Shown here piece after piece: positions 4,448 through 20,417 of a DNA stretch of 23,144 nt. Below the pieces are notes generated by a model. It saw only the letters and a program-made list of their open reading frames with translations, did not search any database and was not told the DNA's origin. The position numbers and the translations under genes were made by a program. This DNA comes from a virus. Position 1 is the stretch's first letter. The number at the start of each line of letters is the position of its first letter. The DNA lies in the IMG/VR virus record IMGVR_UViG_3300031974_000912, positions 1 through 23,144 of that record; one strand, written 5' to 3'.

Positions 4448-5829
4448 TATTCTGCGCAATCACATTGAGGTTCTTTAGTGAACGACTCATACTGCTTCCA
4501 GAACTCCTCATCAAACTCTTCCAGTGCAGCCATGGCATCACTCTTATCTTGAGTGTCAGGCATAACTTGAAGAGAATAGTAGAGTGAAGTCTGAGGGCTA
4601 GCGAGCCATTCTTCAATGAAGGATTGGTTGTAGTCCACAACGTCGCTCCAACTATTCATGGAATATCCATGCAACAAACCTGTCGAATCCAACAGGCGCA
4701 TAATATTATCGGCAACTTTACGATAAGTTTCCCAGCCAACAGTGCTGGCAATCTCTACCTTGCCGTAATCAAAGTGTTCAACACCAAAGGTGCCACTATC
4801 ACGATCAACCTCCGTAGAAATAGGAGGTGCAATCTCAGGACAGGTGGTGTAACCGTCAGGGTCTTGGTAGCGGTAACTGCAAGAGGCGGTAGGAGCAATA
4901 GCAAATGCTCGAACCATCTTATTAGCACGAGCAATCTGTGCTGCAATCTGTACGCCTTTGCGCAACTCATGAGCAAGCAGCGTAGCAGGAGTATGTTCGT
5001 GTGCTACCTGGGAGTTCATCACTTCAAGGGCATCACCAAACTCTGCATAGGTTACTCCATGACGTCGGAGTAGGTTTGCAAGTCCAAGCATTCCGAGACC
5101 GACTTGGCGATCTGTTTCAGGAGCGAGGTATTCTCCAGTTTCTCCAACGCCTGTTCGGGAATGGAGTTCGCACAGCTCGGACATTCCTTGGGTAAATGCA
5201 CGTTGAATGTCATCAAATTCGCATCCACCGAGGTTGACATGCTGCAGGAGACAAGTTCCTCGTGAGGGCAGATACACTTCCAAACATACATTCCCGTAAA
5301 TACGGTTGCCATTGTCATCAACTTTAGTTTTGTTTAGCCAGATGTCACCCTTTTTGATTCCTTGCAGAAGGGCTTCACGTACCGTGTCCGTCGCCTCTTC
5401 CCACCAGTAGTCATTAATGTCCACACAACGCTTAACCCAAGGAAGGTCGTTACGGTTAGCGGAAATAAAATCCAGGATATCAGGATGATTAAGGTCCAGA
5501 TGGATAACCACTGCACCATTTTTATAGACTCCACCACGACGGAGAGTTTCATTTAAGACCGAATAGATTTTTGCAAACGAGACTGGGCCAGAAGCAACCA
5601 AGCCTTTGCCATTCTCAGCTCCCTTGGCTCGGAGTTTGGAAAGATGAATCGCCACTCCTGCTCCATTTCGGAGAGCGTGACTAGCAAATCGCCAAGATGC
5701 TTCGATGCCCTCCGGTCCTTCCATGCTGTCTTCAACAACAAAAACAGTACACGAAACGGGAAGACGAGATTCTGGATCATCAATCCAAGATTGTACACGA
5801 CCGGTGCGAGCGATCAGATCAGTAGACAT
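4447..5829 (-). CDS. Ribonucleotide reductase catalytic (alpha) subunit, minimal class I type
   Basis: This enzyme reduces ribonucleotides to deoxyribonucleotides for phage DNA synthesis. In the 460-aa protein I see the redox Cys pair (C27 in SCTVF, C193 in GTCLLQ), the radical loop N180-V-C182-L-E184, the phosphate-binding APTASCSYR (312-320), the adjacent Tyr pair Y417-Y418 (SLYYSLQV), and C-terminal C456/C458 (QCDCAE) for re-reduction by a thiol partner. The double Tyr is a hallmark of class I, where it carries the radical from beta. The ATP-cone regulatory domain is absent, making it much shorter than E. coli NrdA (761 aa). The ATG at 5829 lies one base after the mazG stop. Such genes were long annotated as class II. 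The Tyr pair and the nearby beta gene argue for class I. Confidence 0.93.
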   Translation of the reverse strand: MSTDLIARTGRVQSWIDDPESRLPVSCTVFVVEDSMEGPEGIEASWRFASHALRNGAGVAIHLSKLRAKGAENGKGLVASGPVSFAKIYSVLNETLRRGGVYKNGAVVIHLDLNHPDILDFISANRNDLPWVKRCVDINDYWWEEATDTVREALLQGIKKGDIWLNKTKVDDNGNRIYGNVCLEVYLPSRGTCLLQHVNLGGCEFDDIQRAFTQGMSELCELHSRTGVGETGEYLAPETDRQVGLGMLGLANLLRRHGVTYAEFGDALEVMNSQVAHEHTPATLLAHELRKGVQIAAQIARANKMVRAFAIAPTASCSYRYQDPDGYTTCPEIAPPISTEVDRDSGTFGVEHFDYGKVEIASTVGWETYRKVADNIMRLLDSTGLLHGYSMNSWSDVVDYNQSFIEEWLASPQTSLYYSLQVMPDTQDKSDAMAALEEFDEEFWKQYESFTKEPQCDCAE

Positions 5830-5830
5830 A

Positions 5831-6211
5831 TTAAACGAGGTCAATCAGGTTGGGAAGAAAGTAGTTGGGTCCTTTGAGGATCTTACCATCCTCTCGGTAA
5901 ATTGGTTCACCGTTGTCGTCTAGCTTACTCATGTTGCTAGCATGAACACGGTTGTGTGCTGCGCAAATGTCCCAGTCAAAGGCCGCTGCCATCTGATGGA
6001 TAACATATAGCAGATCAGTCAGCTCTTTGAGCATGTGCTCACGAGCCCGTTTGTTGGTGATGTCTTTACAAACCTCTTTGTATGCCTCATTCAATTCAGC
6101 ATACTCTTCAGCGATCAAAGTCTGTTGAAGAGTCAAAGAGGTAGGCGTCAGATTCGTAGGCAGCTTGTATGCTTTGCGAAACTCGTTCGCGCTGTTTTCG
6201 TAATTCGTCAC
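5831..6211 (-). CDS. mazG: MazG-like nucleotide pyrophosphohydrolase
   Basis: MazG-family enzymes hydrolyse nucleoside triphosphates to monophosphates. The phage form is thought to act on dNTPs from degraded host DNA or to alter host physiology. The 126-aa protein has the E35-E36-x-x-E39 motif (AEEYAEL) and E63-x-x-D66 (KELTDLL), together forming the all-alpha NTP-PPase metal site. The C-terminus (DNGEPIYREDGKILKGPNYF) is typical of phage MazG. I chose the GTG at 6211, which gives the usual short N-terminus before the first conserved helix. It overlaps the DUF3310 gene by 104 nt, unusually long. RNR alpha starts one base downstream. Confidence 0.9.
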   Translation of the reverse strand: MTNYENSANEFRKAYKLPTNLTPTSLTLQQTLIAEEYAELNEAYKEVCKDITNKRAREHMLKELTDLLYVIHQMAAAFDWDICAAHNRVHASNMSKLDDNGEPIYREDGKILKGPNYFLPNLIDLV

Positions 6212-6595: not shown

Positions 6596-7274
6596 AGTCT
6601 TCGGCTTGTAGGATTTTAGCAAGCCGAGCGTTTAACAGAGCATCGTCGTCTGACAATCCTCGTTCACGATAGGCTTGGCACACAGCTTCCCATGGAAAGT
6701 CATGTTTGTCAACCAGATCAGCTGCACGTTTGATGCCAATACCAGGGCAGCCAGGGTACCCATCTGTTGGGTCTCCTGCCAGCGACTGTATCAGGTGCCA
6801 CCGATCACCTTCTTCTTTTGTAATTTCTTCAACATCGTCGCTGAGGTTCCATAGAACACCAGGGATCTGACGCATGTCTTTGTCAGGGCTGACAATGATT
6901 GGCTGGTCATCCAGCTCATGCATTGTAGCGTCAATGCCTAGGGCATCGTCTGCCTCTAGATCATCACGAACAACAGTGCTGTAGTTTTCTTTGCACCAGT
7001 TTACCAAACGTTTGTAACCCAAAGGCTTACGTCGGTTTCGATGCCCTTTGTAATCGGGATAAATTTCTTTCCGAAAATTTTTAGGACTAGAGAAGTAAAG
7101 AATTACTCTATCATCCATCATAGCGGTCGTGACCTTACGTAGTTCACGCTCAAAGATTTTAAGAACTTCACTGAAATTAGATTGAGTGATAATGACATCA
7201 TCACCAAAATCAATGCCTTCTTCACAGGCTTGAGCTGACTTATACGCAAGGTAGTCAGTGTCTAGTAATAGCAT
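6504..7274 (-). CDS. 5'-3' exonuclease / flap endonuclease, T7 gp6-like
   Basis: In T7 the gp6 exonuclease degrades host DNA, removes RNA primers and supports recombination. The 256-aa protein has FEN-superfamily carboxylate motifs in order: LLLDTDYLAYKSA at the N-terminus, KNFRKEIYPDYKGHRNRRKP, VRDDLEADDALGI, VSPDKDMRQI, and the helix-hairpin-helix-like GDPTDGYPGCPGIGIKRAADL. Length matches gp6-type enzymes. The ATG overlaps the DNA polymerase stop as TAATG, giving coupled translation. The C-terminal 30 residues overlap the nblA-like gene in another frame. Confidence 0.93.
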   Translation of the reverse strand: MLLLDTDYLAYKSAQACEEGIDFGDDVIITQSNFSEVLKIFERELRKVTTAMMDDRVILYFSSPKNFRKEIYPDYKGHRNRRKPLGYKRLVNWCKENYSTVVRDDLEADDALGIDATMHELDDQPIIVSPDKDMRQIPGVLWNLSDDVEEITKEEGDRWHLIQSLAGDPTDGYPGCPGIGIKRAADLVDKHDFPWEAVCQAYRERGLSDDDALLNARLAKILQAEDYDFIGKAPILWTPTASPGADNRTAVQATTN

Positions 7275-8539
7275 TAATGTACCTCAGCCCAATTCATTCC
7301 AACTTTTGCATCAGCATCAATGGGAATCCTGAGCTTGTAATATTCACCAGCCATAACAGCTGATGTGGTGCAGATTGATGCAACTTGTTCAGCTACATCA
7401 GGAGGACATCCTAAAGCTTGCTCGTCATGAACAAAGGCGTACCTTTCGTGTTCAATGCCTTGCAAACGTTCGGCTGTAATCAATAGCCAACGCTTCGCCA
7501 AACACCCGGCTGATGACTGCAAAAGGAAATTCAAAGCCTTGTGCGGCGAGTCAACGAGGATATGGCGACCGTCGATAGATTGTATATATCCATACCTCTT
7601 CGCCTTTTCCTTGACTGCTTCCACAAGACTTTCCAAGCCCGGAATTGCGTCAAGGTACGCTCTGCGAATCTCACCACCTTTCTGCTTAGCTTGCTGCTGA
7701 GACAGTTGCGAGTCATAACTAAGACCAATTTTAGTGTCCGAAGCCCCATATAGAAAGGCGTACGTAACAGTCTTGACCGCTCGGCGGCTGATGCCAATTT
7801 TGTCAGCATTAACTTGGTGGATGTCGTCATTGAGGAGGATGTCAGCATACCTGCCATTGTCAAACCTAGCAAGGTAATGGGCAAATATGCGCAACTCGAT
7901 CCCAGCAAGGTCGCTATCAACTAGCTTCCAGCCTGGACGAGTGATAAACAGGGAGCGGCAATCAGCATCGCTACTCACCTGAGCAAGGTTGGGACGTGCA
8001 TGCGCCATTCGATGCGTAGCAGCCCCAATAAAGCAGGAATGGTGAAGCCTGCCATTCTTGACCAACTTCAACCATGCGTTGTTGCCTTGCGACAGCATTC
8101 CGAGTTTCTTCTGTGTCTCAAGAATCCCCAGGAATAACAACGCTTCTTCCGAGCCGATCTCTTTGAGAACGACTTCATCAATAACAGCTTTGCCTGTTTC
8201 AGTCAGCTTCTGTGGCTTCCATTTGTGGAAGGTTCGGAAGTACCAGGCAATGTGCTCTCGGCTACTAGGGTTGAACTCCTTTAGCCGTTGCATTTCTGCT
8301 CCAGCTACATAGCCTTGAGTCTTGTTATCACGCTTTGGCGTGAATGTGTTACCAGGAACACACCAGCAAAGGCTCTGAGCCTTAGCTCTAAGCGCCTCTA
8401 CGCGGTTTAAAAGGGTGTTCTCTAGCTCTTGTGCCGCACGGACGTCAAAAGGCCATCCCACGGCTTCCTGGGCAGCCATCAGCTCCGCAATGCGATGCTC
8501 TAAGAGGACTGCTTCAGGTATTTTTGGAAGTGTTTCCAT
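7274..8539 (-). CDS. T7-like (family A) DNA polymerase, polymerase half of a split gene
   Basis: This 421-aa protein is the polymerase domain of the replicative enzyme. Motif A is SDLAGIELR (about 209-217). The O-helix motif B is RRAVKTVTYAFLYGA (252-266), with Tyr260 at the E. coli Pol I 762 position, as in T7. Motif C is FVHDEQALG (369-377). The end (KVGMNWAEVH) matches the T7 gp5 C-terminus. The exonuclease domain lies in a separate upstream frame. The two frames overlap by 40 nt, with this one at -1 relative to the first. The first ATG in frame is at 8539, with no evident ribosome-binding site. The N-terminal EAVLLEHR aligns with T7 gp5 EAVDIEHR, exactly where the exonuclease frame leaves off. 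Confidence 0.93.
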   Translation of the reverse strand: METLPKIPEAVLLEHRIAELMAAQEAVGWPFDVRAAQELENTLLNRVEALRAKAQSLCWCVPGNTFTPKRDNKTQGYVAGAEMQRLKEFNPSSREHIAWYFRTFHKWKPQKLTETGKAVIDEVVLKEIGSEEALLFLGILETQKKLGMLSQGNNAWLKLVKNGRLHHSCFIGAATHRMAHARPNLAQVSSDADCRSLFITRPGWKLVDSDLAGIELRIFAHYLARFDNGRYADILLNDDIHQVNADKIGISRRAVKTVTYAFLYGASDTKIGLSYDSQLSQQQAKQKGGEIRRAYLDAIPGLESLVEAVKEKAKRYGYIQSIDGRHILVDSPHKALNFLLQSSAGCLAKRWLLITAERLQGIEHERYAFVHDEQALGCPPDVAEQVASICTTSAVMAGEYYKLRIPIDADAKVGMNWAEVH

Positions 8540-9015
8540 AGTTTTACGAGAACAGCAACGTCTTGAACACAATAATCCTGCATTTCCTGAGACCACTCAC
8601 TCCAGTCAGTGTGCTTACCAAAGTCTTGTTTGTAGCACTTGAGTCGGTAGCCATAAGCTTCCAGGCTGTGTGATCCATAGAGTTTAGCGGGCATCATGTC
8701 CCACTTACGCTTCAGGTCAATGTCGAGCAGGTTGGTGTGGAAGAATCTGCTCAGGATTAGGGTGTCAAGCTGATGATGGTGGTCAAACCACGGGAAATGT
8801 TTCTTGATTTGGGGTGTGTCATAGCCTACACCATTGTGAGCAACGATGAGGTCGGCACACTCAAGGTACTTAATCCCTGTGATCACGGGCTCGTACTGAC
8901 CACCTTGATCATTGTACTGGCACACCTGGCCAGTGTCAAGATCTTGGGTTACGAGACAATGAATGACTGTGGAATCAAAACCATCAGTCTCAATGTCATA
9001 CGCTAGGCGATTCAT
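8500..9015 (-). CDS. T7-like DNA polymerase, 3'-5' exonuclease half of a split gene
   Basis: This is the proofreading domain of the family A polymerase, 171 aa. Exo I is AYDIETDGF (D7, E9), Exo II lies in LIVAHNGVGYDTP, and Exo III in QDYCVQDVAVL. YGSHSLEAYGYRL is nearly identical to the T7 gp5 sequence (YGSHALEAWGYRL). I chose the ATG at 9015 because GAGGTGG lies just upstream and the protein then begins directly before Exo I. The frame ends with TAG at 8500, inside the start of the polymerase frame. The pair could work as two subunits, be joined by -1 frameshifting, or reflect a 1-nt sequencing or assembly error. Confidence 0.92.
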   Translation of the reverse strand: MNRLAYDIETDGFDSTVIHCLVTQDLDTGQVCQYNDQGGQYEPVITGIKYLECADLIVAHNGVGYDTPQIKKHFPWFDHHHQLDTLILSRFFHTNLLDIDLKRKWDMMPAKLYGSHSLEAYGYRLKCYKQDFGKHTDWSEWSQEMQDYCVQDVAVLVKLWKHFQKYLKQSS

Positions 9016-9130
9016 GCCACCTCTCAACGTAATCATCAAAGCCCTCTTTGCCGCCACAAGGGCGGCTGTAACGGTCTTCAGGAGGATCGTTGGGCTTACG
9101 TTCCTCCTTGGTTTCTTTAGGCTGTGTCAT
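8996..9130 (-). CDS. 44-aa charged hypothetical protein
   Basis: The short reading frame begins with ATG at 9130 and encodes MTQPKETKEERKPNDPPEDR, then GGKEGFDDYVERWHE. It is highly charged, probably partly disordered at the N-terminus and helical at the end. It overlaps the exonuclease-domain gene by 20 nt and the upstream 42-aa membrane gene by 14 nt, fitting the tight packing of this block. I do not recognise it. Coding support is the packing, the composition, and the fact that its own 3' end carries the ribosome-binding site of the exonuclease gene. Confidence 0.65.
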   Translation of the reverse strand: MTQPKETKEERKPNDPPEDRYSRPCGGKEGFDDYVERWHESPSV

Positions 9131-12134: not shown

Positions 12135-14465
12135 TTAACAGAAAAAGTAAGTGGAAGCTTCGACCACTTCCGGGTCAAGTGTACCGACTATAGGCGGTGG
12201 CTCAACAGCATTGATTGACTCACCAAACTTGGTAAGCCAACAGTCTCGTGTGAAGATGTCCGTGTAGGTCTCTCGCACAAGACGGTTGAGTGTTCCCATG
12301 TCAGTTGCTCTACAGAGTACTGAATCATGGATGACCGTGAATGGTCCTGAAAACTTTTGAAAGGTTTCATGGAGGATGGACGCATCCAGTGAATGGATGA
12401 GGTTGGGAGCAGTGCTGGACTTGTGACGGGTAGGACAAGGATCACCCTGACCAACAGTCAAGGATATCTTAGTCTCACCCAACAACTGAAGTTTAAGACG
12501 TTCTACTTCTTTCTTGTTTCGTTGTTGGTTGACAACAAAACCAGAAGGAGTGGTCCACTCAACTTCATGTGCACCATTTTTGATGTACTGACCAACATGT
12601 TGTTTGATCCAACGCATGACACGCATAGGACCAGGAACAATAGCATCCATACTATCGTAAACAGCTTTGACAACCAATGACACCTGTTCAGATGTTGGTT
12701 CAAACCCCTGCTCCTTAAGCGCCTCTCGTATGTAGACACGAGAACTAGCTTTAGTAGCATTGTATGGGATTGTCATCACTGTTCGCTTAGTCGTCTTTCT
12801 GGTCATCCATTCATGCATCTCCTTAGGGAGATACTTCTTCGCCTCTTCTGCTACTGCCTTGTATGCATCACTAGGTTTATCACCAGGAGACACATTGACA
12901 AGGGATGCAGTAGAAGCATCCTTAGCTAGACCAGCAAGGATTTGTAGACCAGAACAAGTTGCATCAACTGCAACCATAAGACCAGTGAACTGCTTATCAC
13001 ACGCAATACAACAATGATAAAACTCATGACATGCTGCCATGAATTGCCATGGTTCTTCGACCTCTTCCCATTCAGGAAGATTGTCAATGGGATCAGTAGC
13101 GATCTTTGTGATCAGGTCGTAGTTGTCATTGACCCAAGCTAGTCGCTCTTCCATCGTAGCTTTGTCCAACCCGTAGGTTGTTGCTACTTGAAAGGCTAAC
13201 CATTGCTCAGCTTCATCATCAACAAACGACTCGTCAGCAAACCTTATCAGGCTCTTACCAAAGTCAGTATCTTGTGGTGTTAAATAAGCAGGAATTGGAT
13301 AAGCTCTCCCTCTGTAATCAAATGACCAACAGAGATAGTAGATCTCATCCTTGAACTTCTCAGCTGCTTCCAACTGAGTTCTTGTTCTTACTGATCTTTT
13401 AAAGTTAAGACGATCAGCGTTATATCCTTCAGCCATCGCACGTTTCCATGCTTGATGTACTTCAGGATCTTCATCTGCTTCTGGTGGTCTAGAAGGTTTA
13501 AAGGATTCAGTAATAGGAATAAACTTCCCAATCTTAATTCCTCTTTCCTTAAAGTGTTTAGCCACCTCAAGCACATGAGTGTTGACACGGTACCTCACCT
13601 TCTGAAGTTTATTCAGAAATTGAATCGGTGTGTCCCCGTGTTTTACTGTCCCCTTACCGCGACGAGTCAGTTGATGACCCTTCATCAGTTCGTTGGTCAG
13701 ATACCCACCAAGCCTCTCATTGGTCCAGTCGTTAGGTTCCACAAGCATAGGCCATGGAATACCACTGAACATCTCAGCTTGGCTGATCAGTTGATCCCTG
13801 ATCTCCATGAAAGCAGGAGTAGGAACAATCCTACACAAGCTACGCTTACCAAGAGTCTCGGTCTGTTTCATGAACCATCCAGTCTCAGACAGGACAACAT
13901 TGAGACACCAACCACCTAAGGCAGCTTTGGTCTTGACTGACCATCGGTCCCAATAAATCTCATTCCTGTTGAAGATAATACTAGCCACTGCCTCCTTCTG
14001 GTGGGTACCGCAGGACTCGTGGAAGTATTTCTCTTGGATGTACTTGAACAAATCAGGTGCTTCGGTTCTGTACCACCTAAACTTACACTCAGCCTCAAGT
14101 GCTGAGCCCATGGACGTAAGGACGTTGGTCAATAGATCAGCGTTACGCTTACAACTAAACACCAAGTCAAAGGTAATCTTAAGAGCAATGGTAGCAATAG
14201 CTAACGGCTCAAGACCATCAAGGTGCTTAGCAATAGGCTTGTAATACTGTCCTGCCTGTCCCTTACGAAGTTTAGATAGCGAAACCTCTATGCCCTTTAT
14301 AACAGCCGGTAAGGCGGCTCTGATGCTCGCTGTGCCATAGACACTAGCTGAAGCATAGCTCCCCTCTTCCAGCTTGTTCAATGAGTCGTGTAGCTTCTCC
14401 TTCCCACACGAGATCGCTTCCTTCTCTAATTGGAATTGTTTGTTGATCTCGGAAGGTGTCGCCAT
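12135..14465 (-). CDS. Single-subunit DNA-dependent RNA polymerase, T7 gp1-like
   Basis: This polymerase transcribes the middle and late phage genes. The 776-aa protein retains all catalytic residues: motif A VAVDATCSG (D501), motif B KTTKRTVMTIPYNATKA (K560, Y568) and motif C FTVIHDSVLC (D714), equivalent to T7 D537, K631, Y639 and D812. It ends YFFC, comparable with the aromatic C-terminal foot of T7 RNAP (FAFA). It is about 100 residues shorter than T7 RNAP (883 aa). The ATG at 14465 is supported because the following helix matches the T7 N-terminal domain, although the first 122 nt also lie in the frame of an upstream small gene. Residues about 270-278 are encoded by one copy of an exact 25-bp repeat. 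Confidence 0.97.
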   Translation of the reverse strand: MATPSEINKQFQLEKEAISCGKEKLHDSLNKLEEGSYASASVYGTASIRAALPAVIKGIEVSLSKLRKGQAGQYYKPIAKHLDGLEPLAIATIALKITFDLVFSCKRNADLLTNVLTSMGSALEAECKFRWYRTEAPDLFKYIQEKYFHESCGTHQKEAVASIIFNRNEIYWDRWSVKTKAALGGWCLNVVLSETGWFMKQTETLGKRSLCRIVPTPAFMEIRDQLISQAEMFSGIPWPMLVEPNDWTNERLGGYLTNELMKGHQLTRRGKGTVKHGDTPIQFLNKLQKVRYRVNTHVLEVAKHFKERGIKIGKFIPITESFKPSRPPEADEDPEVHQAWKRAMAEGYNADRLNFKRSVRTRTQLEAAEKFKDEIYYLCWSFDYRGRAYPIPAYLTPQDTDFGKSLIRFADESFVDDEAEQWLAFQVATTYGLDKATMEERLAWVNDNYDLITKIATDPIDNLPEWEEVEEPWQFMAACHEFYHCCIACDKQFTGLMVAVDATCSGLQILAGLAKDASTASLVNVSPGDKPSDAYKAVAEEAKKYLPKEMHEWMTRKTTKRTVMTIPYNATKASSRVYIREALKEQGFEPTSEQVSLVVKAVYDSMDAIVPGPMRVMRWIKQHVGQYIKNGAHEVEWTTPSGFVVNQQRNKKEVERLKLQLLGETKISLTVGQGDPCPTRHKSSTAPNLIHSLDASILHETFQKFSGPFTVIHDSVLCRATDMGTLNRLVRETYTDIFTRDCWLTKFGESINAVEPPPIVGTLDPEVVEASTYFFC
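13633..13657 (-). repeat. 25-bp exact repeat, copy inside the RNA polymerase gene
   Basis: The minus-strand sequence begins GTAAGGGGACAG and ends AAAACACGGGGA. It is identical over all 25 bases, in the same orientation, to 18377-18401 downstream of the large terminase. Flanking bases differ at once on both sides. Here it encodes KGTVKHG in the polymerase N-terminal half. A chance match of this length in 23 kb is extremely unlikely. Confidence 0.9.
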
Positions 14466-14547
14466 AAGCTAGGAAAAGAGAGTATTCATGATCATTGAGA
14501 GATTCGATCTCTTGTTGAGACAAAAGAACATGGGTCTCAGACATCAT
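14344..14547 (-). CDS. 67-aa acidic protein overlapping the RNA polymerase start
   Basis: The frame opens with two consecutive ATGs (14547, 14544) and encodes MMSETHVLLSQQEIESLNDH, continues LFLAYGDTFRD and ends EGEATRLIEQAGRGELCFS. Composition is protein-like throughout. It overlaps the previous gene by 11 nt and the RNA polymerase gene by 122 nt in another frame, so about 60 percent of it would be dual-coding. The RNA polymerase start cannot easily be moved downstream because its N-terminal helix matches the family. I do not recognise the protein. A shorter true gene with a fortuitously open tail is impossible without another stop, so it is either real or entirely spurious. Confidence 0.55.
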   Translation of the reverse strand: MMSETHVLLSQQEIESLNDHEYSLFLAYGDTFRDQQTIPIREGSDLVWEGEATRLIEQAGRGELCFS

Positions 14548-14785
14548 AGATTCTGCAGGAAATGTCATCAGGAAAAGCCTCACAATATGTTTGCATGTCA
14601 CAAACATCAAGGTGAGGAATATAATACATCGGATCACCATCGATATCACGTCTGATATCAAGCTTACCCAATGCAGCAAGAATAATAAGAACATCGCCAG
14701 GATCCTCTGACGATACTTCCCCTGTGTCGTAATCGACATCAAAGCCTTCAAAGCGAAGGACATCTGCTAGGTCGTGTGGATTCAT
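14537..14785 (-). CDS. 82-aa acidic hypothetical protein
   Basis: The product starts MNPHDLADVLRFEGFDVDYD, followed by an acidic loop (TGEVSSEDPGDV), a hydrophobic helix (LIILAALGKLDIRRDID) and MYYIPHLDVCDMQTYCEAF. Three Cys residues lie in the last third. I do not recognise the family. Small acidic early proteins in T7-like phages often act as inhibitors or DNA mimics of host factors, but nothing here shows a target. The ATG at 14785 lies 3 nt after the previous stop, and the next gene overlaps its 3' end. Confidence 0.72.
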   Translation of the reverse strand: MNPHDLADVLRFEGFDVDYDTGEVSSEDPGDVLIILAALGKLDIRRDIDGDPMYYIPHLDVCDMQTYCEAFPDDISCRIYDV

Positions 14786-14788
14786 AAG

Positions 14789-15079
14789 TCAAAAGGTTGG
14801 CATGGAAATAGTCTCGTCAGTGAGAACCATAACTTCATCAGCATTAGCTTCCATCAACTTGAGTAGATGTTTGTGTGCTGCTGAAGGTGAACGGTAAGCC
14901 TTCTCAGTAATCTTACCATTCTTGTCAGTAGAACGAACGATGCATGCGAATGCCTCAGGTAGATCCCACATGGCAGCCGCATTCAATCCGTCTTCAATTG
15001 TGTACTCGGTGAGTTCATTAGAAGCATCCCACTCCATGACCTCATCAATGCGATTACCAAAGGGATCTGATCGAGCCAT
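14789..15079 (-). CDS. 96-aa hypothetical early protein
   Basis: The product starts MARSDPFGNRIDEVMEWDAS and continues through AAAMWDLPEAFACIVRSTDK to a C-terminal helix and strand (SAAHKHLLKLMEAN, then EVMVLTDETISMPTF). It looks like a folded alpha/beta protein without membrane segments. I do not recognise the family. The ATG at 15079 lies 2 nt after the stop of the 50-aa membrane-protein candidate. It belongs to the run of small early genes leading to the RNA polymerase. Confidence 0.75.
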   Translation of the reverse strand: MARSDPFGNRIDEVMEWDASNELTEYTIEDGLNAAAMWDLPEAFACIVRSTDKNGKITEKAYRSPSAAHKHLLKLMEANADEVMVLTDETISMPTF

Positions 15080-15081
15080 AA

Positions 15082-15234
15082 TTAGAACTGCTGTCGAACG
15101 TGTACAACTGGTGATGGTCGTGACTCATACTCACGGTGTAGTGAATATGCAACTAACCCCAGAAACAACCAAGCAATCAACACACCAACAAAAGGAGTGA
15201 TGATTGAATTAGGAATCGGTTTCGGAGGAGTCAA
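15082..15234 (-). CDS. 50-aa single-helix membrane protein (TTG start)
   Basis: This frame encodes (M)TPPKPIPNSIITPFVGVLI, then AWLFLGLVAYSLHREYESRP and a polar end (SPVVHVRQQF). One hydrophobic helix spans residues about 11-31. No in-frame ATG exists. The TTG at 15234 lies inside the 3' end of the 70-aa gene (26-nt overlap), and the frame ends 2 nt before the ATG of the next gene, filling the gap exactly. A rare start with no obvious ribosome-binding site lowers confidence. Translational coupling to the gene upstream is plausible. Function unknown. Confidence 0.5.
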   Translation of the reverse strand: MTPPKPIPNSIITPFVGVLIAWLFLGLVAYSLHREYESRPSPVVHVRQQF

Positions 15235-15421
15235 ATTGCGCTTGCGCATTAGCTACACGGTCAAGTAGGTTGTGATGTGGTTGAACGTTCTTCTCCACTT
15301 CTGGATTGTAACGTGACCACCATTGATTGCGTAGTGCATCGACAAGGATGCCTAACTCAATCTCATTGAAGTAAAGCTGTTTTCGTTTCAAAGGCAAGCG
15401 ATGGTAAAGAAAAGCCAGCAT
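15209..15421 (-). CDS. 70-aa hypothetical early protein
   Basis: The product starts MLAFLYHRLPLKRKQLYFNE, continues LGILVDALRNQWWSRYNPEV and ends in a polar tail (AQAQFDSSETDS). The region LYFNEIELGILVDALRNQ reads like an amphipathic helix with a Trp pair. I do not recognise the family. The ATG at 15421 lies 33 nt after the upstream stop, and the TTG start of the 50-aa membrane-protein candidate overlaps its 3' end. Coding support is amino-acid composition and operon packing. Confidence 0.7.
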   Translation of the reverse strand: MLAFLYHRLPLKRKQLYFNEIELGILVDALRNQWWSRYNPEVEKNVQPHHNLLDRVANAQAQFDSSETDS

Positions 15422-15454
15422 CCTTAAGCCCAGGCTGGTGTTGGGCTGAACTTG

Positions 15455-15613
15455 TCAAAGAATGTCCAGGTTGCTGAGCATGTCAGACACGGTGGACTCA
15501 AGCTGATCACAGCGGTCACTCCAGAAGGAACGAGAGCCAAGATCATCAGCTAAATCTAGCTGTTCTTTGGCATAGTCAAGCTGCTCAATGATGCTGTCAA
15601 AGTTACTTTGCAT
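15455..15613 (-). CDS. 52-aa acidic helical protein
   Basis: The product starts MQSNFDSIIEQLDYAKEQLD and continues LADDLGSRSFWSDRCDQLES to TVSDMLSNLDIL. Leu/Ile residues at heptad-like spacing and many acidic residues predict two helices, perhaps a coiled coil. The ATG at 15613 overlaps the stop of the 66-aa gene by 11 nt. An ATG at 15622 would add three residues. A much longer upstream reading is ruled out because the 66-aa gene occupies that DNA in another frame. I do not recognise the family. Confidence 0.65.
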   Translation of the reverse strand: MQSNFDSIIEQLDYAKEQLDLADDLGSRSFWSDRCDQLESTVSDMLSNLDIL

Positions 15614-15803
15614 GGCGACCATAGACGCGGCGGGAGTAGCGAGAAAGAACCATGGAAGACTTAGAACGATAGCCCAAAGCCTTCCACTTTTGGATCTGAT
15701 TGAATTCAACACGGTTAACCATGATAGTCTTGACACGGTAGACGCAGCCTGAGCCACGCTCACCAGGGACAAAGACACGGACACCGAGGCGTTGTGGTTT
15801 CAC
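15603..15803 (-). CDS. 66-aa basic hypothetical protein (GTG start)
   Basis: The product starts (M)KPQRLGVRVFVPGERGSGC, continues VYRVKTIMVNRVEFNQIQKW and ends in a basic tail (RYSRRVYGRHAK). The first half alternates hydrophobic and polar residues like a small beta barrel, which suggests an RNA/DNA-binding fold, but I do not recognise a family. The GTG at 15803 is the best start because the Val/Arg-rich N-terminus looks coding. It is the first gene after the large hairpin at 15841-15889. Confidence 0.62.
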   Translation of the reverse strand: MKPQRLGVRVFVPGERGSGCVYRVKTIMVNRVEFNQIQKWKALGYRSKSSMVLSRYSRRVYGRHAK

Positions 15804-15840
15804 GGCGGTGGTAGCGGTGATGATGGTGGTTTGAGAGAGA

Positions 15841-15889
15841 GAATCTCTCAGGGAAGGCTACAGTGTGTGCAGCCCTCCGGGAGAGAATC
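15841..15889 (-). terminator. Large hairpin at the end of the Cys-rich gene (terminator or RNase III-type site)
   Basis: Two 19-nt arms (15841-15859 and 15871-15889) pair at 15 of 19 positions around an 11-nt loop. On the transcript the arms read GATTCTCTCCCGGAGGGCT and AGCCTTCCCTGAGAGATTC. The upstream arm overlaps the stop codon of the Cys-rich gene. A TCTCTCTC tract follows rather than a clean T run, so intrinsic termination would be weak. T7 early messages are cut by RNase III at comparable hairpins between genes. Either partial termination or processing is plausible. Confidence 0.6.
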
Positions 15890-16550
15890 ATTCGGCAGAG
15901 GTGATGGAGCTGACATGCTTCTTAGCATTACCATGAGCACGAAACACAACGACACATTGGCGTTCTGCTTGTGAGCATAGCTTGCATTCAGAGCATGTAG
16001 TGCTCCTCACTTGTGCTGGACATTCTGTCACTGTTACACCATTGTGGGATGATGGGATGACAGCATCAGAAGGAACAACAGCAACGGCAGGTAACCCAGA
16101 CTGATGAGCAGACACAGCATCACTGATTGATTCGGTGCTAACATTGACAGTAAAGCCAGTGTTGTTGCACTTGTCAATGATGCTGAGATTGTGAGGGTTG
16201 AGCTTGTGGTGAGTGTAGGTGAATCCACGTTTGCCAGCATTGGCAACCACAAGATGAGCCATCATGCCGTAATCTATGTCCCCAAACGAATGGGGCAAGT
16301 CTCCGGCTTGATTGTGTCTCCAGACTTGTTTGTCTGGTAGTGACTGGATAAAGTCACAGAGACCCTGCCAATCAGTACCACGTTCACCTTCAGAGACTTT
16401 ACGCCAATGTAAGGCTAGCGGTCCTGATTTGGCGTAACAGCCTTTGCCGATGAACGGACATGATGGGGCACAGCTTGATTGTTCTGACGTTGTGACTGGT
16501 ATTGGGCCAGTTTTAGCGTTAGAGCTGCGTGGAGTGATGTGAACTCGCAT
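15888..16550 (-). CDS. Cys-rich putative metal-binding phage protein
   Basis: This 220-aa protein has two Cys clusters: C27-x3-C31-x6-C38 (SCAPSCPFIGKGCYAKSGP) and C177, C186-x2-C189-x2-C192-x6-C199 (TTCSECKLCSQAERQC). The middle contains RHNQAGDLPHSFGD, a His-rich FTYTHHKLNPHN and NVSTES, reminiscent of strand-end loops in a barrel. I recall similar uncharacterised phage proteins with the CPxxGxGCYA pattern, loosely resembling gp88-type proteins. An iron-sulfur or zinc site is likely, but no reaction can be assigned. The ATG at 16550 follows the 54-aa gene by 6 nt, and a strong hairpin sits at its stop. It is the largest early gene before the RNA polymerase. Confidence 0.85.
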   Translation of the reverse strand: MRVHITPRSSNAKTGPIPVTTSEQSSCAPSCPFIGKGCYAKSGPLALHWRKVSEGERGTDWQGLCDFIQSLPDKQVWRHNQAGDLPHSFGDIDYGMMAHLVVANAGKRGFTYTHHKLNPHNLSIIDKCNNTGFTVNVSTESISDAVSAHQSGLPAVAVVPSDAVIPSSHNGVTVTECPAQVRSTTCSECKLCSQAERQCVVVFRAHGNAKKHVSSITSAE

Positions 16551-16556
16551 GAGCGG

Positions 16557-16721
16557 TCAGAAAGGATTGGTCCAGTTGTCACGTTGTTTTTGAGTGATGA
16601 GATTGTCGGCATTCAATGTATCTATGAAGTTCAACCATGCTTCACGTTGGGCAATGGTGTCACCACGGTACATGTTGCCGACACACTCACGGAACTCCGC
16701 GATTGCTTGTGCTTTGGTCAT
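16557..16721 (-). CDS. 54-aa small phage protein with C-terminal TNPF motif
   Basis: The product starts MTKAQAIAEFRECVGNMYRG, continues TIAQREAWLNFIDTLNADNL and ends ITQKQRDNWTNPF. The ending (AWxxFxDxLxxxxxITxKQxxxWTNPF) is a pattern I recognise from many small phage proteins of unknown function. It is predicted all-helical. The ATG overlaps the stop of the 40-aa membrane gene as ATGA, so translation is probably coupled, and the Cys-rich gene follows 6 nt later. Confidence 0.82.
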   Translation of the reverse strand: MTKAQAIAEFRECVGNMYRGDTIAQREAWLNFIDTLNADNLITQKQRDNWTNPF

Positions 16722-16840
16722 ACGATGAACAGGTCAACTAGTAGGGCAGACATGCCAGCCACGCAGAGAAGCAGGCTGACTGAAGGCATCGTAACGGATG
16801 CAGCCAAGGTGAGGCAGAGCAGGGAAAGAAACAGGAACAT
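16718..16840 (-). CDS. 40-aa membrane mini-protein
   Basis: The ATG at 16840 opens MFLFLSLLCLTLAASVTMPS, followed by VSLLLCVAGMSALLVDLFIV and a stop. Nearly every residue is hydrophobic or small. It fits either two very short membrane helices or a signal-peptide-like first helix plus one span. AAGAA precedes the start. It lies 3 nt after the 58-aa gene and overlaps the 54-aa gene by 4 nt, which strongly supports coding. Function unknown; small early membrane peptides may act on the host envelope. Confidence 0.65.
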   Translation of the reverse strand: MFLFLSLLCLTLAASVTMPSVSLLLCVAGMSALLVDLFIV

Positions 16841-16843
16841 TTC

Positions 16844-17020
16844 TTAATATCCTAGGTAGTTGAGCAACTGTTGAGCATCGGTGGCACTGTCGCCAATGTC
16901 CAACCATGCATCCAATGCGGAGACGTTATGCTCCCTCAAGATGCGTTTGGCTTGGGATTGGGTCAGGTAGCCATACTCATCAGCTGCCTCAAGAACAGAC
17001 TGCTCGTATGAGTCAAACAT
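16844..17020 (-). CDS. 58-aa early protein, first gene after the early promoters
   Basis: The product starts MFDSYEQSVLEAADEYGYLT and continues SQAKRILREHNVSALDAWLD to a short end (QQLLNYLGY). The arrangement TQSQAKRILREHNVSALDAWLD reads like a helix-turn-helix or small helical bundle, but I do not recognise the family. The ATG at 17020 lies about 200 nt downstream of a predicted host-type promoter, so it is probably among the first genes expressed. There is no good Shine-Dalgarno sequence. The 40-aa membrane gene follows after 3 nt. Confidence 0.75.
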   Translation of the reverse strand: MFDSYEQSVLEAADEYGYLTQSQAKRILREHNVSALDAWLDIGDSATDAQQLLNYLGY

Positions 17021-17141
17021 GGTTTGGGTGTGGTTGGTGTGGCTGTAACCAGTGGGCGAGGCATTGGCTCAGCAGCTCTGGCTGGCTTGTCTCTCGCCTG
17101 TGGCTACATTAACGGGTCGCAAAGCAGCTGGTGTTTCTGTG

Positions 17142-17175
17142 GACCGATGTTGTCACATTCTGTAATGTGTCGGTC
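17142..17175 (-). promoter_or_regulatory. Stem-loop in the early leader transcript
   Basis: The outer arms GACCGA / TCGGTC (17170-17175 and 17142-17147 on the plus strand) and inner arms CACATT / AATGTG enclose a 4-nt loop, with a 6-nt one-sided bulge between the two stems. It begins about 45 nt downstream of the predicted start of the proximal promoter. No T tract follows, so a leader structure or processing site is likelier than a terminator. Confidence 0.5.
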
Positions 17176-17226
17176 GCTACATCAGCTGAATCCAGTCAGA
17201 GCCTAAGGTCTGGCTGAATTGATCAC

Positions 17227-17254
17227 ATATTACCGAGCATTTCCAGAGGGTCAA
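17227..17254 (-). promoter_or_regulatory. Sigma70-type promoter, proximal early promoter
   Basis: Minus strand: TTGACC (17254-17249), a 16-bp spacer, then TAATAT (17232-17227). Both boxes are one mismatch from consensus. Transcription would start near 17220 and reach the 58-aa gene after about 200 nt. Host polymerase would recognise it, as expected for early genes that must be read before phage RNA polymerase exists. Confidence 0.7.
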
Positions 17255-17403
17255 CCTTTTTTCAGAATCTCCACAGATTGTGAGAGATTGGGACGGCTGG
17301 GACAGGTCCAAAACCCTGTGCTGGCCTGGCTTCTCGATGATGTTTCGATCTGCTACTGAGACGGGCGGGACGGCATGGGGGGGATCGGCGCTGGTCACGC
17401 GCT

Positions 17404-17431
17404 AATATATGCCTTTGTAAATTTTTACCAA
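17404..17431 (-). promoter_or_regulatory. Sigma70-type promoter, distal early promoter
   Basis: Minus strand: TTGGTA (17431-17426), a 16-bp spacer, then TATATT (17409-17404). The surroundings are AT-rich upstream and GC-rich immediately downstream. It starts directly after the stop of the 30-aa membrane peptide and lies 177 bp upstream of the proximal promoter, giving a tandem arrangement comparable with the T7 A promoters. Confidence 0.5.
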
Positions 17432-17434
17432 ATT

Positions 17435-17527
17435 TTAGGGGATCCTGAGGATGTACACGATAATACCGAGCACACCCACAAGACCCAAACCTAACTCAAT
17501 CAACACTGACCACACAACTACGTCCAC
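17435..17527 (-). CDS. Possible 30-aa hydrophobic peptide after thyX
   Basis: The frame starts with GTG at 17527, overlapping the last ten bases of thyX, and encodes (M)DVVVWSVLIELGLGLVGVL followed by GIIVYILRIP. It is almost entirely aliphatic and would form one membrane helix with an Arg near the end. GAGG lies 4 nt before the GTG, a fair ribosome-binding site, and the start overlapping the upstream stop fits coupled translation. Its shortness and non-ATG start keep confidence moderate. Function unknown. Confidence 0.45.
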   Translation of the reverse strand: MDVVVWSVLIELGLGLVGVLGIIVYILRIP

Positions 17528-18156
17528 ATAGCCTCATAAATAGCAGGACAATTCTCTTCAATCAAATCCTTCACCCCTTCAGCAATCATACGATGCTCTC
17601 TCTGGGTCTCAGGAGCGGCTCTAACGTCGATGTAATGCAGCCAAGACCTCAGGGTACCATTCATGTACAAACGGCTTGGTATAGCCATAGGAAGGACGTC
17701 TCGTGCACATTCCTTAGCAACCCCTGCCATAATCAATTCACGATACACTTGTTCTGAATGTTTAAAGAGACAATCAATCTCCTTCTTCAAGAACAGGTCT
17801 TCTTCAGCTGGTTGAATGCTGTTCTGCCTATTCTTATGATCTTGGAGCCTTAGTTCAGGTCTAACAGGTTGACCAAGGTGTTCTACATCAGCATAACGTT
17901 GTGAGAACTCTTGAAAAGAGAAGCTTCTATGCCTTAGGATCTGTGCTGCTACTGCTCTAGTAGTATTAATTTCTACTACCATGTTAGCCATTTCAAAAGG
18001 AGACCAATGCCTGTGTTTAATCAGGTATTTAAGAAGCTTAGGAGCTGTGTCATGGTTATGCTGATTAGCAGGATTAGACACTCGTGCACAATAAGCTACG
18101 AGTTCTTCTGCATCAGGAGTAATGGAAATAAGACGAGCAGAGTGAATGGTTGTCAA
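17518..18156 (-). CDS. thyX: FAD-dependent thymidylate synthase
   Basis: ThyX makes dTMP from dUMP using FAD, NADPH and methylene-tetrahydrofolate, supplying thymidine for phage DNA. The 212-aa protein contains the diagnostic motif RHRSFSFQEFSQRY (residues 75-88, pattern RHRxxSxxxxSxRY) plus N-terminal VAYCARVSNP and C-terminal NGTLRSWLHYIDVR typical of the family. Length is normal. No in-frame ATG exists near the conserved N-terminus. The TTG at 18156 gives (M)TTIHSARLISITPD, a sensible start, although no Shine-Dalgarno sequence is visible. It stands alone between the terminator after the large terminase and the early promoters, away from the RNR-mazG block. Confidence 0.95.
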   Translation of the reverse strand: MTTIHSARLISITPDAEELVAYCARVSNPANQHNHDTAPKLLKYLIKHRHWSPFEMANMVVEINTTRAVAAQILRHRSFSFQEFSQRYADVEHLGQPVRPELRLQDHKNRQNSIQPAEEDLFLKKEIDCLFKHSEQVYRELIMAGVAKECARDVLPMAIPSRLYMNGTLRSWLHYIDVRAAPETQREHRMIAEGVKDLIEENCPAIYEAMWT

Positions 18157-18284
18157 GGTGGTTAAAGAAAGCGGTGGTGTTGGTGCTATGTACTGTATTA
18201 GTCTTAATAACAGTAATAATAAGAATAATAAGAGAAGATGGTTCAGTCACTCACTTCGTTCGTTCCTTCACCTCATCTTCATAT

Positions 18285-18290
18285 ATTATA
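18285..18290 (-). promoter_or_regulatory. Candidate -10 element upstream of thyX
   Basis: A perfect TATAAT on the minus strand sits in the AT-rich stretch ACATATAATATATG directly after the terminator T tract. No good -35 box lies 16-18 bp upstream. The nearby TTGACA is only 4 bp away and cannot pair with it. The remaining leader to thyX (18157-18284) is rich in short AT repeats and holds no gene I can support. Some cyanobacterial promoters lack a -35 box, so this is possible but weak. Confidence 0.3.
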
Positions 18291-18298
18291 TGTTTGTC

Positions 18299-18340
18299 AA
18301 AAAAGAGGAAGAAGGAAATGTTTGTCATCCTTTCTTCCTC
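18299..18340 (-). terminator. Intrinsic terminator after the large terminase
   Basis: On the transcript, GAGGAAGAAAGG and CCTTCTTCCTC form an 11-bp stem with one bulged A around a 13-nt loop, followed at once by six T residues. This is a textbook hairpin plus T tract. It lies about 70 nt after the terminase stop and ends the packaging operon. It probably marks the boundary of the right arm. Confidence 0.8.
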
Positions 18341-18376
18341 CGTTTTGACCGCTGTTTCCACACACGAGGGCACCAC

Positions 18377-18401
18377 TCCCCGTGTTTTACTGTCCCCTTA
18401 C
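18377..18401 (-). repeat. 25-bp exact repeat, copy downstream of the large terminase
   Basis: This copy is identical over 25 bases and in the same orientation as 13633-13657 inside the RNA polymerase gene. It begins 8 nt after the terminase stop. Its last part (ACACGGGG) forms a small hairpin with CCCTCGTGT just downstream (18362-18385). It lies between the stop codon and the intrinsic terminator, in DNA with no gene. Confidence 0.9.
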
Positions 18402-18409
18402 GGAGATTT

Positions 18410-20152
18410 TTAGAAAGAAACCCAGGTAGGGACTGAGTTTTTAGCTTTTCCTCTAGCTTCTTGTCTTTGAGCTAGTGTCATACCTAAAACCATGTGGTTT
18501 GCGGCTGATTCTGGGTCATCTATCCAAGCCTGTTGGAGGTCATTCCACTCTTCATTTTTACGTCGAATGATCTCTTGATTAGCGGAGATGCTCATGGCAT
18601 CTGTAAAATATTTTACACCTTGAGCAAGGGCGTCTAATCGGTCATCGTGTTTAACTGCACCTTTTTCACGACACATGCGACTCATCTGATAGAAGAGCAT
18701 GTATAGGAGTCGAGATTCAGGAGGAGCTTCTTGGTTAGAACGGTAATCCCATTCTACAATTTTAGGATCAATCACAAGCCGGTGTTGGTTCATGATTGGT
18801 TCTAGGGCATCAATGATCCTGTCTTCTTTACGGACAGTTGCCCGCACCTCTTCGATGTCTATTCCTTGTTTAGTTTGGATGATGTGTTTTTTAAACAGTT
18901 CTGCGACGATACCATCACCGAAGTTTGTTTCGATGATAAGCTTGGTGGCGTTGTACTTTTTACAACCTCTAAGGATATCCAAAAGAGTGTTGTCGCTATA
19001 ACCATCCCGATAGGCGCGTACCGCGTGGACATAAAGGAATCCGTTTAGTTGAGAGATGTAGACTGCTGCTGTTTCGTCTGTGCCCCTACCAGAAGGGTCA
19101 ACAGAGCAGATAGTTTCTTGGTATTCAGCCCACTCTCCCTGCGTCTGCATGGGGCTATAGAAGTAGTCTCCTGGCAATCCTACAGCAGGCAGACCTTTAA
19201 TGATGTTACGTGGATCAGAACACCAGATAATGTTTTCTGGACCTCTGGTTGGGTTAATAGGATAAACAATCAGGTCAGCAAACTTAAGAGGAAACTTCTC
19301 TGCGTCAGACAAGCTAGTGTCTAGCATGAACTGAAGCATGAAGTTGCTTCGACCCATTGCTGACTCACGTTCTAGCAAGTCGTTTTCATTAAAGCGACTA
19401 TCTGTTGGTTGCCAAACAAGCTTGTCTTTTTCTTCTAGATCATTAACCAACTGAGGGGCTAACAGCCCTTCATACATTTCTGTTTTGCGTGGGTACCTAG
19501 CAGGCCACACAAACGGTTTATAGTTACGTTCTCGTAGTTTATTGTAGATAGTAAATGTTGTCTGAGGTGTACCCAGAAACATAATACGACTTTCTTTTTT
19601 AGGAGTCAAGATAGACTCACATTCAGTAACCAACTGCAAAAGCTTTTCTCTTTGCAGTTCTGTCATACTGTTGTTTGGCACCTCTACGTCGTCTAGGACC
19701 ATCAGGTCAGCACGAGAACCAGTCAACTGACCTGTGATACCCACGGATTTAACAGAAGGGGCTTGGTGAGGCTTAGCGGGGCCAACATCAAAGCTAACAC
19801 GAGACCAACGTTGATCGTCGTTTTTAGGTTTAAGGTGTGACAACCATTCAACTTCTAGAATAAGTCGTTGACAAAAGATTGAGAATGAATCAGCCCTATC
19901 CTTAGAAGCTGACACCACCATAATCTTTTTATCAGCATCATTGTACAAAGTCCATAACACAAAAGCTGCTGTAATCCAACTTTTACCCACACCACGGAAC
20001 GCTTGGATCTGCAAACGTTTCGGTCCGTGTTGAAGGTATTCAGCAATACACAGCTGTGCTCTAGTGGGTGCAGGCAGGTTAAGGTGAGTCCAGATAGCTG
20101 TCAAGAAATATCTAAAATCATTCTTGAGTTGTGTCTCGATGCTTTGGGTCAT
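18410..20152 (-). CDS. Terminase large subunit, T7 gp19-like
   Basis: The packaging ATPase and nuclease translocates DNA into the prohead and cuts concatemers. The 580-aa protein has Walker A FRGVGKSW (about 52-59), Walker B LMVLDDVE (150-157) and the coupling segment MFLGTPQT. A C-terminal RNase H-like nuclease follows, with CSVDPSGRGTDETAAVYI, LIIETNFGDG and HDDRLDALAQGVKYF supplying the acidic residues. Length matches T7 gp19 (586 aa). I chose the ATG at 20152 (MTQSIETQLKND) over a rarer upstream codon. It overlaps the 99-aa gene by 35 nt and is followed by the 25-bp repeat and terminator. Confidence 0.95.
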   Translation of the reverse strand: MTQSIETQLKNDFRYFLTAIWTHLNLPAPTRAQLCIAEYLQHGPKRLQIQAFRGVGKSWITAAFVLWTLYNDADKKIMVVSASKDRADSFSIFCQRLILEVEWLSHLKPKNDDQRWSRVSFDVGPAKPHQAPSVKSVGITGQLTGSRADLMVLDDVEVPNNSMTELQREKLLQLVTECESILTPKKESRIMFLGTPQTTFTIYNKLRERNYKPFVWPARYPRKTEMYEGLLAPQLVNDLEEKDKLVWQPTDSRFNENDLLERESAMGRSNFMLQFMLDTSLSDAEKFPLKFADLIVYPINPTRGPENIIWCSDPRNIIKGLPAVGLPGDYFYSPMQTQGEWAEYQETICSVDPSGRGTDETAAVYISQLNGFLYVHAVRAYRDGYSDNTLLDILRGCKKYNATKLIIETNFGDGIVAELFKKHIIQTKQGIDIEEVRATVRKEDRIIDALEPIMNQHRLVIDPKIVEWDYRSNQEAPPESRLLYMLFYQMSRMCREKGAVKHDDRLDALAQGVKYFTDAMSISANQEIIRRKNEEWNDLQQAWIDDPESAANHMVLGMTLAQRQEARGKAKNSVPTWVSF

Positions 20153-20417
20153 AATAAATACGGAGGTCATCCAAGCCTTCTACCGTTTCAGAAGGCTTAG
20201 ACTCAATAGTGTAGGAAGGCAGCTCAAGAGCATCCATCTGTTTGTGGTACTCTTGAACTGCATTATCTACGGTATCACGAGTGACATATTTAATGTAGAT
20301 AGGCTCTACATATAACAGCACCCACACAACAATCCAACGATACTGTTTTGGAGCAGCATACGCTATCTTACGAAACTGCTCTAGAAGGAGCTGTGAGGGG
20401 CTTAAAATGTCATTCAT
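20118..20417 (-). CDS. 99-aa protein with hydrophobic segment, upstream of large terminase
   Basis: The product starts MNDILSPSQLLLEQFRKIAY, has a hydrophobic stretch at about 27-38 (RWIVVWVLLYVE), then a polar acidic C-terminal half. I do not recognise the family. In T7 the interval before gene 19 holds the spanin genes 18.5 and 18.7. A membrane or lysis role is possible, but the hydrophobic stretch is short and no lipobox or long coiled coil is visible. The ATG at 20417 is followed within 300 nt by the terminase start. Confidence 0.7.
   Translation of the reverse strand: MNDILSPSQLLLEQFRKIAYAAPKQYRWIVVWVLLYVEPIYIKYVTRDTVDNAVQEYHKQMDALELPSYTIESKPSETVEGLDDLRIYYDPKHRDTTQE

Follow-up and report, generated by a model that had tools for sequence, protein, structure and literature searches.

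A repeat shared by the RNA polymerase gene and the terminase 3' flank is a predicted Syn5-type promoter pair in cyanopodoviruses

Introduction

The closest described system is that of phage Syn5, which has only two promoters, one of them within its RNA polymerase (RNAP) gene, and whose purified RNAP has been used with the promoter ATTGGGCACCCGTAA (PMC3950665). Initiation by the cognate RNAP at a site of this kind is known for Syn5 only (PMC3950665), and for most T7-like cyanophages of the sea no promoter appears to have been identified. Here we analyze a 25-bp direct repeat in a virus record 23,144 bases long (IMG/VR record IMGVR_UViG_3300031974_000912), the whole of which we refer to as the window. 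One copy of the repeat lies within the gene for a T7-type RNAP and the other just past the gene for the terminase large subunit. Judged from its sequence, the repeat is a Syn5-type promoter pair with other letters, and both copies are almost certainly promoters of the phage-encoded T7-type RNAP.

Results

Direct comparison confirmed that bases 13633–13657 and 18377–18401 of the window are identical at 25 of 25 positions and in the same orientation, as an earlier note on this DNA had stated. The plus strand of the repeat reads TCCCCGTGTTTTACTGTCCCCTTAC; every gene here lies on the minus strand, where the repeat reads GTAAGGGGACAGTAAAACACGGGGA and can be split into GTAAGGGGACAGTAAA followed by ACACGGGGA. 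The first copy occupies codons 270–278 of the gene for a T7-type single-subunit RNAP of 776 residues (12135–14465, minus strand; Pfam PF00940, E = 2e-66, and PF14700), which is the presumed reader of both promoters. The second begins 8 nt past the stop of the terminase large subunit gene (18410–20170, minus strand; Pfam PF22530, E = 5e-35). Identity soon ends on extension, with 93% over 30 nt. Setting aside a degenerate 36-nt coding repeat within a proline-rich open reading frame, the window contains no longer exact repeat. The chance expectation for a 25-mer is ~5e-7 (both orientations, ~5e8 comparisons), so that the earlier note was right both that identity stops sharply and that such a match is not expected by chance.

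The putative RNAP-internal promoter, ~-16 to -1 (GTAAGGGGACAGTAAA), lies at 13642–13657 on the minus strand and would read toward lower coordinates, through the rest of the RNAP gene, SSB, endonuclease, primase-helicase and onward. The predicted initially transcribed part of this copy, ACACGGGGA, also consists of RNAP codons (13633–13641, minus strand). The putative right-end (post-terminase) promoter has the same letters at ~-16 to -1 (18386–18401, minus strand). The window covers half a genome, and at up to 4 mismatches in 18 it holds only these two copies. An exact 25-mer search of 2.9 million viral contigs gave no match, because the letters differ in every lineage.

A distant search of a phage collection matched the post-terminase region in NATL2A-133, P-SSP10, P-SSP6, 9515-10a and P60, and weakly in S-CBP2, always close to the end of the terminase gene and in DNA to which no gene is annotated. 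We also collected 80 IMG/VR loci with related terminases for post-terminase comparison. Their elements have a constant part, ACACGGGG[A]AGTGGTGC...GTGTGGAAACAGCGGTC, ahead of which stand ~16 variable letters that resemble T7, T3 or SP6 promoters. For contigs and genomes holding both genes, we then compared the post-terminase stretch with the RNAP gene without gaps and took the best match. This match fell at the same RNAP codon, ~270–286, in all but a few cases, with the terminase-side copy usually 0–30 nt past the terminase stop, and the pair was found in nearly every tested cyanopodovirus with both genes. It stands at the same two places, with other letters, in P-SSP7, P-SSP2, P60, S-CBP1, S-CBP2, S-CBP3, S-CBP42, S-RIP2, SS120-1, S-TIP37, S-TIP28, 9515-10a and many IMG/VR contigs. 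Genome-specific letters include AACCCCTACGTATACAGGGG in P-SSP7 (positions 6853 and 43820), AATTGGTGACAGTAAGCAGGG in P60, CATCTGGCCCATGTAAGCAGGGAGA in S-CBP42 (18406 and 11719), TCATTACAGGGATGTAAACAG in SS120-1 and CAAAGGGGGCCCACTACGCTGGG in S-TIP28; the pairs of P-SSP7 and S-CBP42 are exact. One contig (L117) is without a usable terminase end, and another entry (L007) gives an 18-letter pair when the annotated terminase stop is used. Most complete genomes carry just the two sites at up to 4 mismatches, and exactly two were counted in Syn5, P-SSP7, P-SSP2, S-RIP2, S-CBP3, SS120-1, S-TIP37 and 9515-10a. In the non-cyanophage relatives RHEph01 and CRP-125, the pair consists of a copy after the terminase gene and one just downstream of the RNAP gene; the search in HTVC019P gave no pair. 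In this sample, embedding of the promoter within the RNAP gene is a cyanopodovirus trait.

Applied to Syn5, the same blind procedure returned ATTGGGCACCCGTAA, at 4929 in the RNAP gene and at 44797, 5 nt past the terminase gene. In an all-versus-all comparison of 25 genomes, each post-terminase stretch scored a mean of 19.7 against its own RNAP gene and 9.4 against foreign genes, and the summed own-pair score of 493 was reached in 0 of 100,000 permutations (maximum 325). This test is conservative, because near-duplicates in the set raise the foreign scores. An exact 25-bp match by itself would permit a recombination scar, a recent duplication or an assembly chimera, two of which the earlier note had raised. 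The pair, however, recurs in isolates and contigs that were sequenced independently, its letters changed but its two places kept, which excludes the scar and chimera of that note and leaves an origin of this kind with a negligible probability. The pattern that the note had regarded as damaging, relatives keeping the RNAP copy without the terminase copy, is the opposite of what we observed.

The variable letters also follow the RNAP. In T7 RNAP, residues 748, 756 and 758 read promoter bases, and N748D switches T7 to T3 specificity. We aligned 39 distinct RNAPs with T7 RNAP, registered the embedded promoters by their ACA[CG]GG start and, for each promoter position, ranked the 502 variable RNAP columns outside the embedded site by association. 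For base -10, T7 residue 748 ranked first of the 502 (z 9.0, next 3.5), with K paired with G, N or Q with A, and D or E with C, in agreement with the T7 (N748, A-10) and T3 (D748, C-10) rules. Residue 754 ranked first for base -9 (R754 with C, 15 of 15), followed by 756, and residue 240 ranked first for base -5 (z 15.6); in T7 this residue sits in the hairpin that melts the DNA at -5. The specificity-loop codons of the window lie at 12438–12518 (minus strand), where the alignment equates residues 659, 665 and 667 with T7 748, 754 and 756, and codon 210 (13836–13838, minus strand) corresponds to residue 240 of the intercalating hairpin.

Close relatives differ in step: the window has K748 with G-10, one relative with an RNAP 91% identical (L091) has N748 with A, and another at 88% (L094) has E748 with C. 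Among RNAP pairs 75–97% identical, the same residue with a different base was never seen (59 versus 0 for 748 and -10, 88 versus 0 for 240 and -5). On these alignments, the predicted promoter signal and the RNAP change together. Hypervariability of the embedded site at the protein level ranked only 62 of 773 windows, and we make no claim about it. The suggestion in the earlier note of a phage RNAP recognition site is strongly supported.

The earlier note had also placed the second copy at the concatemer junction or terminal repeat. The Syn5 genome ends in a direct terminal repeat of 237 bp and that of P-SSP7 in one of 206 bp (the latter is also given in PMC3350473), and in both phages the right-end promoter stands ~1.15 kb before the repeat, so that the copy is near this region but not within it. 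A packaging or terminal-repeat signal was therefore rejected as the identity of the repeat. The window runs from terminase to thyX to the early genes, as expected for a contig assembled across a collapsed repeat. The related idea, that the repeat is a pac or concatemer-junction signal bound by terminase and its RNAP copy incidental, could draw on the position of the second copy, 8 nt past the terminase gene and near the right end, and on the strong conservation of the leader hairpin and GTGGAAACAGCGGTC behind it, which could serve packaging. The repeated part itself, however, changes in step with the RNAP loop and is never missing from the RNAP gene, and in Syn5 it is a proven promoter; we regard a pac signal as very unlikely, and the packaging site proposed in the earlier note is unsupported for the repeated part.

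Only the post-terminase copy runs on, from ~+1, into a hairpin of 7–9 bp with an 8-nt loop, AGTGGTGC. In the window, the first 24 nt of the predicted right-end transcript form an 8-bp hairpin, ACACGGGG-AGTGGTGC-CCTCGTGT (18362–18385, minus strand). The loop appears invariant (AGUGGUGC in the transcript), in part by selection, as the loci were gathered by AGTGGTGC. Standard pairs filled 99.2% of the cells over 19 distinct arm pairs, versus a mean of 71% with the arms re-dealt (0 of 2000 reached the observed value), and GC, CG and AT interchange at several pairs. RNA folding of the leader hairpin alone was not significant in the window (z ~0), unlike in Syn5 (z -2.7), and the case for the hairpin is made by these compensatory changes, not by folding energy. 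The leader of the P-SSP7 lineage differs, for example ACAGGGG-AAGGGTGGA-CCCTTGT.

Past the hairpin, the alignment of loci reveals a conserved stretch, GTGGAAACAGCGGTCAAA (18344–18361, minus strand). It is followed by a tentative terminator-like hairpin and T-run (GGAGGAAGAAAGGA and TTCCTTCTTCCTCT with TTTTT; 18299–18341, minus strand), whose perfect stem in the window is only 5 bp. Such a second hairpin ends at ~+70 to +85 in many relatives, on moderate evidence: under the stricter stem test, a stem in the terminator stretch beat 95% of shuffles in 25 of 52 relatives, and a lax terminator scan proves nothing, as its hits in 58 of 63 elements were accompanied by hits in 262 of 400 control windows. 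Leader hairpin, conserved single-stranded stretch and terminator-like hairpin with T-run thus all fall within ~85 nt of the right-end promoter (18299–18385, minus strand). It is possible, although rather unlikely, that this promoter yields a conserved structured short non-coding RNA, made up of the hairpin with loop AGUGGUGC, the conserved GUGGAAACAGCGGUCAAA and the terminator-like hairpin at ~+70 to +85, with a function of its own in right-end replication start or in packaging. The T7 terminator tested with the Syn5 enzyme was ignored by it (PMC3950665), so the terminator-like hairpin may serve the host RNAP or nothing.

Because a structured non-coding region matches the RNAP gene almost perfectly and covaries with it, the repeat might also be read as an RNA-level element, a post-terminase decoy, antisense or guide RNA acting on the RNAP mRNA or gene. 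The two copies are of the same sense, however, so that pairing is impossible, and such an element does not predict covariation with base-reading RNAP residues; tRNA and Rfam searches gave no hit. This makes an RNA-level element extremely improbable. We abandoned the guide or antisense idea, as the variable part follows the RNAP loop, and found no support for the decoy suggested in the earlier note.

The first gene downstream of the right-end promoter is thyX, for a flavin-dependent thymidylate synthase (17518–18156, minus strand; Pfam PF02511, E = 6e-46). G+C content is ~0.49–0.52 at 15500–17500, in the early region, versus 0.39–0.47 in the profiled flanks. A protein of 220 residues encoded at 15888–16550 (minus strand) has a strong Pfam match to DUF7227. 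The DNA polymerase is encoded at 7274–9057 (minus strand) by two overlapping open reading frames in different frames, an exonuclease part of 185 residues and a polymerase part of 440; in the P-SSP7 and S-TIP37 records it is likewise annotated as a split gene or a frameshift.

Discussion

In the mechanism that we propose, from position and the Syn5 precedent, the specificity loop would read bases ~-12 to -8 (GGGGA), CAGTAAA would be the melting region, and transcription would start at or beside the A of ACACGGGGA. The earlier note had also offered an autoregulatory element, and in its simple form this fails: an internal start ~275 codons into the gene gives no full-length RNAP mRNA. For the same reason, early promoters read by the host RNAP would be needed to supply the initial full-length RNAP mRNA. 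The internal copy would then drive the genes for DNA replication and metabolism and the structural genes, following the Syn5 pattern. The right-end copy would drive thyX and onward to the end of the genome; on concatemers, its transcription might continue into the next early region. On the model of T7 phi-OR, and from its position only, the right-end copy may also aid the start of replication. What we observe is the sequence and position of the copies, their conservation, their matching within each genome, the covariation of residues with bases and the leader hairpin; we infer that transcription starts at both sites in vivo, which classes of genes they serve and any part that they have in replication.

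Several points weigh against reading the repeat as a promoter pair of this type. Because the window is half a genome, further promoters could lie in the missing structural region. S-CBP2 carries a third promoter-like copy, with 1 mismatch, in its ribonucleotide reductase gene (16389–16410), and one entry (L076) has a weak pair only. The +1 of the window promoters was set by alignment to Syn5 and P60 and carries an uncertainty of 1 nt. In addition, the covariation z-scores are without phylogeny correction, for which the other columns and the close relatives are a partial control, and lineage signal dominates positions -4 and -8; our claims are confined to the top-ranked pairs.

The clade-wide pair rule and the cyanopodovirus residue–base code appear unreported in the literature searched, which took in few subscription papers. 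The promoters predicted in a 2024 screen were AAAATTCTTCAAGTTTACAA (P-SSP7) and CACTTCCACTCAACCAACCG (S-CBP42); the screen found 18 of 26 enzymes inactive and names wrong promoters as a likely cause, and in its accessible text the P-SSP7 and S-CBP42 enzymes are not among the active ones named, nor are they listed individually (PMC11475235). The pair rule gives quite different promoters, AACCCCTACGTAT followed by ACAGGGG for P-SSP7 and CATCTGGCCCATGTAA followed by GCAGGG for S-CBP42, and the words predicted by the screen for P-SSP7 lie, in that genome, among the late tail genes. In the case of RHEph01, the promoter predicted by the screen begins with the repeat ATTACCCCTCCCTTAAG (PMC11475235). 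A simple rule, a word common to the RNAP gene and the 3' flank of the terminase gene, thus offers testable promoters for the P-SSP7 and S-CBP42 RNAPs, together with a natural residue–base code across dozens of RNAPs that is open to testing by single swaps. A promoter that is embedded in the gene of its own polymerase is inherited along with the enzyme, and drift in specificity needs only one other site changed. This linkage may explain the rapid change of promoter letters between polymerases that are 88–91% identical.

The window resembles Syn5 in having two copies in the same orientation, one in the RNAP gene and one after the terminase gene, and in the same transcript-leader hairpin with the loop AGTGGTGC. 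The letters differ, ATTGGGCACCCGTAA in Syn5 versus GTAAGGGGACAGTAAA in the window, as does the start base, G in Syn5 and apparently A in the clade of the window; the Syn5 promoter is proven in vitro, whereas that of the window is known from sequence alone. T7 likewise has phage RNAP promoters near gene 1 (phi1.1A) and near the right end (phi-OR), with an AT-rich -4 to -1, and its N748 with A-10 conforms to the same residue–base code. In contrast, T7 has at least 15 promoters, and its phi1.1A (record position 5848) is not within gene 1 but follows it, as the RNAP-side copy follows the RNAP gene in RHEph01 and CRP-125. When the two are aligned, the SP6 promoter agrees with that of the window at 12 of 16 positions (GGTGACACTATA versus GGGGACAGTAAA), and a T3-like TTAACCC is present in one locus (L009). 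SP6 and T3 belong to different phage lineages, and their resemblance to the window is confined to the promoter.

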